Part shown: piece after piece, positions 52,707-57,577 of the stretch
Position numbering within the stretch: position 1 is the stretch's first letter
Layout of the letters: each line of letters begins with the position of its first letter
Assembly: GCF_003427025.1 (NCBI RefSeq)
Contig: NZ_QVAI01000001.1
Location: 558,001-622,000 of the forward strand
Origin: Jiangella endophytica
GTDB taxonomy: Bacteria; Actinomycetota; Actinomycetes; Jiangellales; Jiangellaceae
Length of the DNA: 64,000 bases
Direction of reading: 5' to 3'
Made by a program: the position numbers and the translations under genes
Notes under the pieces: generated by a model
Seen by the model: only the letters and a program-made list of their open reading frames with translations
What the model was told of the DNA's origin: nothing
Database searches by the model: none

Positions 52707-53978
52707 CTAGGGTTGGGCGTCGAGCACCGACTGCGGGATGTCGGCGCCGTTCTGCAGCGCCGTCCACAACTCGCCGGCCAGCTCGGGATCCCAGCTGACG
52801 GTGTTGCCGACGCGGCCGAGCGGGACGGTGATGGTGTCGCCGGAGCCGCCGGAGACCGAGCCCATGCCGCGGGCGAACGCGAACATGTCCATGGGGCCGG
52901 TGTTCTCGTCCAGCACCAGCGCGTCGCCGCCGGCCAGGGCCGTGCGGGTGAGCTCGATCGGGTTGACCAGGGTGCCCGGCGACGTCGCCTTGTCGGCGAT
53001 GGCGGAGATGAGCTCGCGCTGCCGCTGCACCCGGCCGATGTCGGCCGTGGGGTCGAAGTAGCGGGCGCGGGCGTAGCCGAGCGCGTTCGTGCCGTTCAGC
53101 GTCTGGCAGCCGGCCGGGAGGTCGATGTGGGCCTTGTCGTCCTGGATGGCTTCGTCGAGGCACATCTCGACGCCGCCGAGGGCGTCGACGATGCCGGCGA
53201 AGCCACCGAAGCCGATCTGCACGTAGTCGTCGATGGCGACGCCCGTGGCCCCCTCGATCGTTTCGACCAGCAGCGGGGCGCCGCCGAACGCGAACGCGGC
53301 GTTGATGCGGTTCTCGCCGTGGCCGGGGATGTCGACGACAGAGTCGCGCGGGATGCTGATCAGCGAGTTGCGCCCGCCGCCGCCGGGGACGCTCAGCAGC
53401 ATGATGGTGTCAGTGCGCTGGCCCTCGACGCTGCCGGTGCCCAGCTCGCTCTGCTCCTCGGCGGAGAGGTCTTCACGGCTGTCGGATCCGACCAGCAGGA
53501 ACACCCGGCCCTCGGAGACCGCCGAGCCGTGGTCGGACGGGATGGCGTCGACCTTCTCGATGCGCCCCCAGACGTACCAGAGGAGCACACCGAGCGCGAC
53601 GAGCACGACCAGCCAGAACGCCAGGAACCAGCGCAGGAAGCGGACGAAGCCGGAGCGCTTCTTCTTCGGCCGGCCCGGCGGCTCGGCTCCCTCGCGGCGA
53701 CGACGGGTCGGTGGCGGCGGCGACGCGGGCGGTGCGCCGGCGCCGTCGGTGTCGGCCCGGCCGTAGGGCTCGGCAGGCATGACGCTGGTGCCGCCCGGGG
53801 CTGCCGCGGCCTGCGCCGGCGCCGGTACGGCCTCACTCTCGTGCGGGCTGTGTGCCACGCCGCCGCGATAGGAGACGCCCGGGACCTGGCCGGCCTGGTA
53901 CGCGGTGACCTTGACCTCGGTCCCGCGTCCGCCGTCCGCCCCGTACGCCGCCATTCCTGCCTCGCCGTCTGGTCGCAT
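52707..53978 (-). CDS. LytR-CpsA-Psr (LCP) family glycopolymer ligase
   Basis: A 423-residue membrane-anchored LCP protein. The N-terminal ~110 residues are cytoplasmic, Pro/Arg-rich; one membrane span follows (WFLAFWLVVLVALGVLLWYV). The outside LCP domain has FLLVGSDSRED, RTDTIMLLSV, ISIPRDSVVDIPGHGENRINAAFAFGG and YARARYFDPTADIGRVQRQREL, with the Arg/Asp set that binds the polyprenyl diphosphate. It transfers glycopolymers from lipid carrier to peptidoglycan. ATG 53978 has TATGGT (53987-53992, minus strand) 8 nt upstream; GTG 53981 is an alternative. Confidence 0.92.
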   Translation of the reverse strand: MRPDGEAGMAAYGADGGRGTEVKVTAYQAGQVPGVSYRGGVAHSPHESEAVPAPAQAAAAPGGTSVMPAEPYGRADTDGAGAPPASPPPPTRRRREGAEPPGRPKKKRSGFVRFLRWFLAFWLVVLVALGVLLWYVWGRIEKVDAIPSDHGSAVSEGRVFLLVGSDSREDLSAEEQSELGTGSVEGQRTDTIMLLSVPGGGGRNSLISIPRDSVVDIPGHGENRINAAFAFGGAPLLVETIEGATGVAIDDYVQIGFGGFAGIVDALGGVEMCLDEAIQDDKAHIDLPAGCQTLNGTNALGYARARYFDPTADIGRVQRQRELISAIADKATSPGTLVNPIELTRTALAGGDALVLDENTGPMDMFAFARGMGSVSGGSGDTITVPLGRVGNTVSWDPELAGELWTALQNGADIPQSVLDAQP

Positions 53979-54031
53979 CACGCTCGACCATACCTTCGCC
54001 GGACGGCTCTGTAACCTGCCGATCTCGTCGC

Positions 54032-54838
54032 TCAGCCCTGCAGAACGACGGCGTCGCCGGCGCGCAGGCCGAACTCCGCGGCCGCCGAGCCGCCGTTCAC
54101 GACCAGCTCCAGCAGGCCCGGCCCGGAGCTGCCGGTGACCACCGCGGCAGTGCCGACGGGCACGTCGGAGAGCCGGCGGCGGTAGGGCACCTTCGTGGGC
54201 CCCACGGCGACCCGGTCGCCTTCCACGACGCCCAGGTCGGCGGCGGTGCAGGTGAGCTTGCAGTTGCCGAAGTTGTCGACCAGCGCGACGTGGACGGCGT
54301 CCGGCCGGTCCGGAGCCGGGAGCTCGACCGCCGTGAACGGCACCGGCCGGTCGTCGAGCACCCACTTCGCCAGCAGCGGCAGGTACCAGAGGCTGCGGAA
54401 CTGGGTGGCCGCGACGTCGACGGCGTCCGGCTCGCCGATCGCGGCCCACTCGGCCGCCGCCAGCACCGTCCGCGCGTCCGTCACCGAGACCGACGTCACG
54501 CCGAGATGGCGGCGCACCGGCTCCAGCAGCACCGGGTCGTACGTCGTGAACACGGTGTGCCGGCCGTGCCGGAACCAGCCGAACGGCGCGCCGTTGGGCC
54601 ACCGGCCGTCCCGCGGCGCCACGTTGACCAGCGTGGCCGTCGCGAACCCGTCCTCGCCGAGCAGCCGCGTCGACAGCAGCACGTCCAGCAGCGTCAGCCC
54701 GGCCGCCTCGACCGGCGCCGGGCCGTCCAGCGGCAGCAGCACCGGCGACCGTCCGAACAGCGCCGCCATGCGAGTGGCCAGCCGGGCCCGCGCGTTGGTG
54801 TCCGAACAGTCGGTGAGGTAGGTGATCGGCGGATACAT
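54032..54838 (-). CDS. SAM hydroxide adenosyltransferase (DUF62) family protein
   Basis: A 268-residue two-domain protein. The N-terminal part ITYLTDCSDTNARARLATRMAALFG, then LVNVAPRDG, and the C-terminal beta-barrel strands VHVALVDNFGNCKLT and LELVVNGGSAAAEFGL match the family that converts S-adenosylmethionine and water to adenosine and methionine, and includes the fluorinase/chlorinase enzymes. The usual TTDFG opening reads LTDCSD, a variant. No halogenase-specific loop was recognised. Upstream lies a leader with a Met-rich 21-codon frame, alternative hairpins and a terminator, so expression is probably attenuated. ATG 54838 with GAGAGGA upstream. Confidence 0.8.
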   Translation of the reverse strand: MYPPITYLTDCSDTNARARLATRMAALFGRSPVLLPLDGPAPVEAAGLTLLDVLLSTRLLGEDGFATATLVNVAPRDGRWPNGAPFGWFRHGRHTVFTTYDPVLLEPVRRHLGVTSVSVTDARTVLAAAEWAAIGEPDAVDVAATQFRSLWYLPLLAKWVLDDRPVPFTAVELPAPDRPDAVHVALVDNFGNCKLTCTAADLGVVEGDRVAVGPTKVPYRRRLSDVPVGTAAVVTGSSGPGLLELVVNGGSAAAEFGLRAGDAVVLQG

Positions 54839-54884: not shown

Positions 54885-54914
54885 AAAAAGGGCCCCCGCG
54901 GAGTGCGGGAGCCC
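54885..54914 (-). terminator. Leader terminator of the SAM-hydrolase-family gene
   Basis: On the minus strand GGGCTCCCGC (54914-54905) pairs with GCGGGGGCCC (54899-54890), with one mismatch, and is followed by TTTTT (54889-54885). This is an intrinsic terminator placed between the leader frame (stop 54940) and the gene (start 54838), not at a gene end. Confidence 0.75.
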
Positions 54915-54973
54915 GGTGAGCTGACGAAAAGGGGACGCGTCAGGTCAGCATGGATCGGCCGCACCTGGGGTGC
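54902..54973 (-). promoter_or_regulatory. Alternative hairpins of the leader attenuator
   Basis: On the minus strand GCACC (54973-54969) and GGTGC (54965-54961) form hairpin 1 inside the leader frame. The 3' arm with its next bases, GTGCGG (54964-54959), can instead pair with CCGCAC (54908-54903). That segment is part of the 5' arm and loop of the terminator, so hairpin 1 favours termination, and the alternative pairing prevents it. Confidence 0.6.
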
Positions 54974-55005
54974 AGCATTCGCATCATGGCCTGGCCGTGC
55001 GTCAC
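54940..55005 (-). CDS. Met-rich 21-residue leader peptide
   Basis: GTG at 55005 starts a 21-codon frame ending in TGA at 54942-54940. TAGCGT lies 7 nt upstream of the GTG, so translation would be leaderless. Met occurs at positions 1, 7, 8, 10 and 19, with the run MMRML at 7-11; the first three internal Met codons stand just before hairpin 1. A ribosome waiting at codon 10 would cover the 5' arm of that hairpin. This is the design of amino-acid attenuators (trp, ilv, leu leaders), here with methionine as the probable signal. Confidence 0.6.
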   Translation of the reverse strand: MTHGQAMMRMLHPRCGRSMLT

Positions 55006-55012
55006 GGCGACG

Positions 55013-55042
55013 ACGCTATCGGCGCCCGTTCGCGGCGGTCAA
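55013..55042 (-). promoter_or_regulatory. Promoter of the leader peptide and SAM-hydrolase-family gene
   Basis: On the minus strand TTGACC (55042-55037) and TAGCGT (55018-55013) are separated by 18 nt. The predicted transcription start falls at the GTG of the leader frame. The divergent thioesterase promoter (TACGCT, 55068-55073) is 26 bases away. Confidence 0.65.
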
Positions 55043-55996: not shown

Positions 55997-57577
55997 ATGA
56001 CCACAGCGGCACGTCCGCCGGATCCACGGCGGGTGCGGGCCCGTCGCGAAGCCATGGCCGCGCTCCGCGCTCAGCGGGCCGAGGCGGCACGGTTCCGTCG
56101 TTCGGTGACGCTCGTCGCCCTGTCCGTCGTCGCTCCCGGCAGCGCGCAGCTGATCGCCGGCCACAAGAGGACCGGCAAGATCGCGCTCGGCGTCTACGGC
56201 GGCCTGGTCGGCATCGCGCTGCTGGTGCTCTGGCTGGTGCCGCTGCAGGACCTCGCCGGGCTGGCCGTCCGGCCCTGGCTGCTGACGACGTTCAAGCTGC
56301 TGGCGTTCGGGCTCGCGGCGGCGTGGGTCGTGCTGCTGCTCGACGCGTGGCGGCTCGGCCATCCGCCGGGGCTGAATCAGAAGCACCGGCTGATCATGAT
56401 CGGCGCGACGCTCGCGCTGGCCGCGATGGTGTCGACGCCGTTCGTCGTCGCCGCCCGGTACGCGACGGCCGCGCACGACGCCGTCGTCGAGATGTTCCCG
56501 TCGGGCGAGGTCGCGGCCGCCAGCGACGGCCGGCTCAACATCCTGCTGCTCGGCGTCGACGCGGGCGACGGCCGGGTCGGCGTGCGTCCCGACAGCATCA
56601 ACCTGGTCTCCATCGACGTCCGCACGGGCGAGCCGGCGATGATCAGCCTGCCGCGCAACCTGGAGAACGCCCGCTTCCCCGACGGCACGCCGGCCGACGC
56701 GGAGTTCCCGCGGGGCTTCTCCGGCGACGGCGACGAGTCCGACTACATGCTGAACGCGACCTGGACGTTCGGCGAGGAGAACCCGGAGCTGTTCGAGGGC
56801 CCGTCCGGCCCCGGCCCCACCGCGGTGAAGCAGGCCGTCGAAGGCACCCTCGGCATCCCGGTGCACTACTACGTCGCCGTCGACCTGCAGGGGTTCCGCG
56901 ACATCGTCGACGCGATCGGCGGCGTGACGATCCGGGTCAACGAGGAGCTGCCGATCGGCGACAAGGGCCGCGTCCTCGAGCCCGGCCTGCAGGAGCTCGA
57001 CGGCTACCACGCGCTCTGGTACGCCCGGTCGCGCGAGGGGTCGTCGGACTACGCCCGCATGGCCCGGCAGCGCTGCGTCATCGGCGCGCTGGTCAACCAG
57101 GCCGACCCGCAGACCGTGCTGTCGAACTTCGTCGAGCTGGCCGACGCGTCGAAGTCGGTCATTACCACCGACATCCCGCGCCAGGACCTCGCCAACCTCG
57201 TCGACCTCGCGTTGAAGGCGAAGGACCAGGAGATCACGTCGCTGCAGTTCGTGCCGCCGCTGATCGTGCCCGCCGACCCGGACATCGGGCTCATCCACGA
57301 CCGGGTCGACGCGCTGCTGTCCGGCGACGCGAAGCCGGCGGCGTCGGAGTCCGCCTCCGACGAGCCGAGCGAGCAGCAGCCGGAGGAGAAGCCCAGCGAC
57401 GAGGCGAGCGACGAGCCGAGTGACGAGCCGAGTGACGAGCCGAGCGAGGAGTCCCGTGACGAGCCGTCCGACGACCCGTCCGACGAGCCCGCGGACCGTC
57501 CCGCCGACGACACCGGCGACGAGGAACCGGACGAGACGGCGCCGGTCGAGATGTCGTCGGTCTGCTCCTACGAGTGA
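55997..57577 (+). CDS. LCP family protein with polytopic N terminus and acidic tail
   Basis: A 526-residue LCP ligase relative. The N-terminal ~150 residues hold about four hydrophobic segments (LVALSVVAPGSAQLIAG, ALGVYGGLVGIALLVLWLVP, FKLLAFGLAAAWVVLLL, LIMIGATLALAAMV), more than the single span usual for LCP proteins. The LCP domain has ILLLGVDAGDGRVGVRPDSINLVSI, MISLPRNLENARFP, HYYVAVDLQGFRDIVDAIGGV and LWYARSREGSSDYARMARQR. The C-terminal ~80 residues are an acidic DEPS/DEPSD repeat. It probably joins glycopolymers to the wall. GGGGGAAG lies just before the ATG. The polysaccharide genes follow on the same strand. Confidence 0.88.
   Translation: MTTAARPPDPRRVRARREAMAALRAQRAEAARFRRSVTLVALSVVAPGSAQLIAGHKRTGKIALGVYGGLVGIALLVLWLVPLQDLAGLAVRPWLLTTFKLLAFGLAAAWVVLLLDAWRLGHPPGLNQKHRLIMIGATLALAAMVSTPFVVAARYATAAHDAVVEMFPSGEVAAASDGRLNILLLGVDAGDGRVGVRPDSINLVSIDVRTGEPAMISLPRNLENARFPDGTPADAEFPRGFSGDGDESDYMLNATWTFGEENPELFEGPSGPGPTAVKQAVEGTLGIPVHYYVAVDLQGFRDIVDAIGGVTIRVNEELPIGDKGRVLEPGLQELDGYHALWYARSREGSSDYARMARQRCVIGALVNQADPQTVLSNFVELADASKSVITTDIPRQDLANLVDLALKAKDQEITSLQFVPPLIVPADPDIGLIHDRVDALLSGDAKPAASESASDEPSEQQPEEKPSDEASDEPSDEPSDEPSEESRDEPSDDPSDEPADRPADDTGDEEPDETAPVEMSSVCSYE

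Follow-up and report, generated by a model that had tools for sequence, protein, structure and literature searches.

Attenuation by leader peptides has been well described for several amino acids, and methionine is usually controlled by riboswitches or repressors. To our knowledge, leader-peptide attenuation is hardly documented for methionine, whose starvation should stop translation initiation too. The conserved leaderless attenuator coded with Met codons that we describe here makes it directly testable whether, and how, methionine can be sensed despite this initiation block. In mycobacteria, leaderless attenuators with polycysteine frames have reportedly been described by Canestrari et al. 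in 2020. These attenuators, cited in two papers (PMC13236596, PMC9031893), share with our locus a short leaderless frame whose codons would sense a sulfur amino acid, but are set apart by their Cys codons and by the genes they control.

The trp, leuS and ilvB leaders of Actinobacteria (Seliverstov et al. 2005, PMC1262725) are built in the same way, with a short and often leaderless frame of control codons, then competing hairpins and an intrinsic terminator ahead of the gene. Here, however, the control codons are Met codons set around an invariant CGA, and the target is a SAM-fold gene instead of a biosynthetic operon or a synthetase. Upstream of actinobacterial methionine operons, the same 2005 survey detected no RNA structure that was conserved, which mostly bears out the statement of the earlier note that a Met leader would be unusual in this position. 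The one candidate that tempers it is the 'metL' leader proposed ahead of metNIQ in S. lividans (PMC8079986). It is likewise a proposed leaderless, Met-containing leader peptide of an actinomycete, but its sequence is unrelated (MSTTSDRTPATEATTTPGARCMCRRMCAF), its Met codons are scattered, it lacks a typical terminator, and it precedes another gene.

The window, that is the whole stretch of 64,000 nucleotides of Jiangella endophytica DNA that was analysed, carries the locus on its minus strand. A -35-like hexamer TTGACC (55037-55042), visible too in most Jiangella orthologues, is separated by an 18-nt spacer from a -10 hexamer TAGCGT of the TANNNT type (55013-55018); this promoter was left unscored by the sigma-70 scan. 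The GTG start lies at 55005, 7 nt past the -10 box, so that the transcript is probably leaderless. It opens the frame V(M)THGQAMMRMLHPRCGRSMLT* (54940-55005), with 21 codons and Met at codons 7, 8, 10 and 19, and contains the control core ATG-ATG-CGA-ATG at codons 7-10 (54976-54987). Immediately after the core comes hairpin 1 (54959-54975), in which segment 1, CTGCACC (54975-54969), pairs with GGTGCGG of segment 2 (54965-54959), as an alternative to the antiterminator. Segment 2 as a whole (54951-54965) is the antiterminator arm and is predicted, from the masking computation, to be exposed when the ribosome has Met codon 10 in its A site; indeed, its GTGCGG (54964-54959) is able to pair with CCGCAC (54908-54903) in segment 3 (54903-54914), the 5' arm and loop start of the terminator. 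The intrinsic terminator itself (54885-54914) is made of a stem at 54914-54890 and a TTTTT run at 54889-54885, and it is followed by the structural gene (54032-54838, ATG at 54838), which encodes a protein of 268 aa assigned by profiles, a structural model and alignment to the SAM hydroxide adenosyltransferase/halogenase superfamily, with a divergent N-terminal domain. Re-reading of the minus strand thus confirmed the promoter, leaderless frame, hairpin 1, terminator and GTGCGG/CCGCAC pairing of the earlier note, coordinates included.

No other site in 2 kb resembles a terminator, for an expectation of 0.2, and the 141-nt leader folds better than 200/200 dinucleotide shuffles (z = -3.2). Two genes resembling the LytR-CpsA-Psr family lie on either side of the locus, at 52707-54000 and 55997-57577.

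Orthologues of the gene were collected by a scan that recovered Kribbella, Streptomyces, Kitasatospora, Streptacidiphilus, Actinospica and Catellatospora, together with distant ones in Patescibacteria, from which the actinobacterial genes are separated as one clade with full support in the tree. Within Jiangella the gene is present in 11/12 genomes, and the frame, hairpin and terminator are kept in 11 sequences, window included. All 47 intact actinobacterial loci read for the gene, which belong to five families (Jiangella, Kribbella, Streptomycetaceae, Actinospica and Catellatospora), have a leaderless mini-frame whose core is [A/C]TG-CGA-ATG-[A/C]TG. The representative leaders read MTHGQAMMRMLHSMCGRSMLA in Jiangella, MTWYAAMRMLSPRCGRTSAA in Kribbella, MQHTATLAMMRMMPPPPEALR in Streptomyces, MTAGFAMMMRMMPRSPEALR in Actinospica and MTSPEPQPSLRMMRPVGRETAGA in Catellatospora. 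A TANNNT box stands 6-8 nt upstream of the conserved frame starts; at three loci (L035, L054, L063), where the script took a more distant start, the box was judged by eye. Taken over the 11 Jiangella genomes and the four other actinobacterial groups, the conservation of the leader is far beyond chance. Where related actinomycetes keep the gene, they conserve both the Met codons and the terminator, and the loss of these two, which the earlier note had envisaged as an argument against its own reading, is not what is seen. The sole exception to the core is a Kitasatospora locus (L090, 3000-4420) that lacks the leader as well as the 5' half of the gene and retains the transporter. In another record (L077), the leader goes out of frame past the core through the deletion of a single base; the gene in the same record is frame-shifted as well, and the leader frameshift may be a sequencing error. 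An indel past the core in Kribbella also shifts the frame and relocates the stop, so that selection is not acting on the C-terminal end of the peptide. The Patescibacterial orthologues of the divergent SAM-fold protein (L066-L088, many genomes) have no such leader and an ordinary Met content.

Across the 47 loci, position -1 is ATG in 45 and CTG in 2, position 0 is always CGA, position +1 is always ATG, and position +2 is ATG in 24 and CTG in 23. One core Met codon is therefore invariant, with flanking codons that are either ATG or CTG (Leu for Met at -1 and +2), and the Arg codon, CGA at 54979-54981 of the window, varies less than the Met codons next to it. In some lineages the Met runs grow by whole codons, reading MMRM, MMMRM and MMMMRM in Jiangella and MMMRMM in Actinospica, and the Kribbella leaders have no more than two internal Met codons. 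That the leader frame is translated is suggested by its conservation together with its spacing from the promoter.

The second conserved feature is the relation between the core and the terminator. The distance between them is 60-70 nt in the 46 loci scored automatically (at the remaining one, L043, the script chose the wrong stem and the terminator was assigned by hand), and the intervening sequences are unalignable across clades. In every clade, a segment that begins 13 nt past the Met codon in the A site pairs with the 5' arm of the terminator, through pairs that differ from clade to clade: GTGCGG/CCGCAC, CCGGAGG/CCTCCGG, CGGG-GG-CTTC/GAGGCCCCCG, and a further version in Catellatospora. As the alignments (A2, A3) were too conserved for within-clade covariation counts to be informative, segments were swapped across clades instead, and the native assignment of the four clade representatives ranks 1/24 among the permutations. 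In two Kribbella species (loci L043 and L051), a C of the terminator arm has become T, which strengthens the antiterminator and leaves a G-U pair in the terminator, and the loop-closing pairs of hairpin 1 alternate between C-G and T-A within Jiangella. Tested against shuffles, the antiterminator of single sequences gives p values of 0.09-0.44 in Jiangella, mostly 0.08-0.56 in Kribbella (0.007 for L043) and mostly 0.003-0.05 in Streptomycetaceae. These tests being weak in Jiangella and Kribbella, it is the cross-clade comparison of sequences that carries the case for an attenuator.

Masking of the leader up to the stalled position gives an occupancy of the antiterminator arm of 0.86-1.12, versus 0.07-0.65 when masking extends to the stop codon, the contrast being clearest in Streptomyces and Catellatospora. 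For the window sequence, antitermination is already favoured in the no-ribosome state (0.81). At equilibrium, the terminator, once complete, prevails in every case (P = 0.98-1.0), so that the switch must be kinetic, with timing deciding the outcome.

Thus, as far as sequences can establish it, the locus is a real ribosome-mediated transcription attenuator of the classical type, placed before a gene of the SAM-hydrolase superfamily, because the core and terminator are conserved, the pairing between them varies by clade, and no leaderless start is found at the core in the loci read outside this gene family. This part of the reading given in the earlier note stands; the role it assigned to the enzyme is not supported as stated. 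When Met-tRNA is plentiful, the ribosome would pass AUG-AUG-CGA-AUG and reach the stop codon, where segment 2 would be covered or paired with segment 1, so that the terminator would form and the gene would be off. With little charged Met-tRNA, it would instead stall with a Met codon in its A site and cover segment 1, and the segment 2 freed in this way would pair with the 5' arm of the terminator before the 3' arm is synthesised. With this antiterminator formed, RNA polymerase would continue into the SAM-hydrolase/halogenase-fold gene. Further along come a cystine-type amino-acid ABC transporter in Streptomycetaceae and Actinospica, and metK in Catellatospora. A shortage of charged Met-tRNA is the most economical reading of the signal and probably the right one, since the Met runs lengthen in some lineages, the transporter is Met-depleted in Streptomycetaceae and metK is a neighbour in Catellatospora. 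It counts against this reading that a lack of Met would hit initiation as well, and that CGA is the more constant codon. We likewise consider the explanation as a whole, a translation-coupled attenuator on a leaderless transcript that senses Met-tRNA and switches on the SAM-fold gene, to be a likely one. The anatomy, conservation, spacing, alternative pairings and gene association are read from the sequences themselves; that the leader is translated, that Met-tRNA is the signal, that the switch operates in vivo and that the enzyme takes part in methionine/SAM salvage is what we infer from them.

The same attenuator might respond to another signal, either by stalling at the invariant CGA or through a nascent [M/L]-R-M-[M/L] peptide acting with a small molecule. 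CGA is read by tRNA-Arg-ICG via a poor I-A pair, and this decoding might depend on a SAM-dependent tRNA modification. The codon is present in 47/47 leaders, though in Jiangella, Kribbella and Streptomycetaceae only about 2-4% of the Arg codons of the genes downstream are CGA, and the restriction of the codons flanking CGA-ATG to ATG and CTG would suit a stall of this kind. However, it is the Met codons that multiply next to CGA in several lineages, and the Arg codons do not, while the products are Met-depleted and the neighbours are related to sulfur or SAM; we therefore regard this other signal as rather unlikely. The rare CGA codon could also set the timing of the switch, or its decoding could itself be sensed. 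A combined form, which would make a new class of attenuator and in which the Met-CGA-Met core, instead of a plain run of Met codons, would sense Met-tRNA and SAM-dependent CGA decoding together, to control a Met-poor SAM-fold enzyme of uncharacterised reaction, is somewhat less probable still and is put forward as a speculation.

Conservation of the core at the nucleotide level, down to the third position of the Arg codon, and the SAM-enzyme fold of the controlled protein would both fit an RNA aptamer, perhaps one that binds SAM, in which the reading frame is incidental, but the Met codons are added as whole triplets, the Jiangella leaders carry synonymous changes (CGA/CGT and TCC/TCG at codons 17-18), the start codon and promoter box keep a fixed spacing, and the surroundings of the core show no conserved fold. 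Moreover, the Rfam search of the leader matched no family at threshold, SAM riboswitches included, its one sub-threshold match being to the terminator hairpin; a SAM riboswitch or another known RNA family was rejected on this ground, and the aptamer is very improbable. Ordinary hairpins, next to a chance start codon and the terminator of another transcript, come cheap in high-GC DNA, and the single-sequence p values of Jiangella would agree with them. Yet the core, start, terminator and spacing are conserved across five families, and the gene upstream of the leader is divergent, so no gene of the minus strand needs a terminator there; such a coincidence is hardly credible.

The attenuator is tied to its gene. 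The core pattern has a single occurrence in the Jiangella endophytica genome and is present in 131/395 genomes of a class-wide pattern search; a regulon of such leaders in the host genome was rejected, the core being there once only and the other occurrences read in the class having no leaderless start. Among 20 extra loci outside the SAM-fold gene family, none (0/20) has a leaderless start at the core, and the leader-plus-terminator layout was not seen at the other loci read outside the family. A longer core pattern is present in 5/247 Streptomyces genomes, with the leaderless frame and terminator in 5/5; because of this low count, the gene, common in Jiangella, is taken as accessory in Streptomyces. 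NCBIfam and Pfam yielded no known leader-peptide family model, and no plasmid carriage of the locus was found.

Three ABC transporter genes follow the enzyme gene in Streptomycetaceae and in one Actinospica locus (L035), with a permease and an ATPase whose best NCBIfam matches are cystine-transporter models, under their cut-offs; in Catellatospora, the enzyme gene is followed by metK, which passes its NCBIfam cut-off. Compared to paralogues from the same genomes, a few of which are also low for the ATPase, the transporter of Streptomycetaceae is strongly depleted in Met: 0.69% vs 3.0% for the ATPase, 0.44 vs 2.3% for the permease and 0 vs 0.9% for the binding protein. As for the enzyme itself, Met is absent (0%) from 12 Kribbella proteins totalling 3,261 residues and makes up 0.27% of the Streptomycetaceae and 0.45% of the Jiangella sequences, where the genes that neighbour it have 1.2-1.7% and the Patescibacterial orthologues 1.3%; its Cys content is not reduced. 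Such a Met-poor operon suggests selection for making these proteins under methionine scarcity. As independent proof of Met sensing, the depletion of the enzyme is weakened by the Met-poor canonical hydrolase of Jiangella: the ordinary SAM hydrolases of this genus have 0-1 Met, and the fold may be Met-poor anyway.

Between the gene and the transporter, many Streptomycetaceae (L048:4893-4980, for example), and L046, carry a small frame MLKxMSGTLxLVRRRHVDxxRCAADLCR, the end of which (RRRHVDxxRCAADLCR) may resemble the actinobacterial cysteine leader peptides. Some amino-acid-type ABC ATPase paralogues of Streptomyces (L194, L182, L184), each of about 250 residues, have no Cys and 0-2 Met and are perhaps sulfur-starvation transporters; no Met- or Cys-rich leaders were found near the low-Met ATPase paralogues.

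The locus finally points to a divergent family of SAM-fold enzymes, present in Patescibacteria as well, from which the hydrolytic motifs seem to have been lost. Only the C-terminal domain is matched by SAM_HAT_C (PF20257, 45.2 bits for a cut-off of 25.5); the N-terminal domain is unrecognised by Pfam or NCBIfam, and the NCBIfam SAM hydrolase model scores 36.7, far under its cut-off of 350. The predicted structure of the 268-aa protein (mean pLDDT 88) has PDB fold matches to 2zbv, SalL and PH0463 with TM values of about 0.62-0.68. The protein thus shares with the SAM hydrolases (DUF62), the SalL chlorinase and the fluorinase the fold, the C-terminal domain and, in a profile alignment against the ordinary SAM hydrolase of Jiangella, the DNFGN and SSG positions, but in a loosely aligned region VDP is replaced by VAP and F[H/D]GRD by FRS. 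We take the Asp of VDP and the F[H/D]GRD motif to be the hydrolytic residues of SAM hydrolases. The critical residues for hydrolysing SAM are likewise missing from fluorinases (PMC3999930), and even for ordinary DUF62 enzymes the role is a matter of debate (PMC12120602). For these reasons, the release of methionine by SAM hydrolysis, as the earlier note had it, is not supported as stated, and we do not claim this activity for a protein that appears to have the fold of SAM hydrolases and halogenases with the hydrolytic motifs replaced. The canonical SAM hydrolase paralogue of Jiangella (L001, L022-L025), for its part, reads FDGRD, with Asp for the His of FHGRD, and is nearly Met-free.
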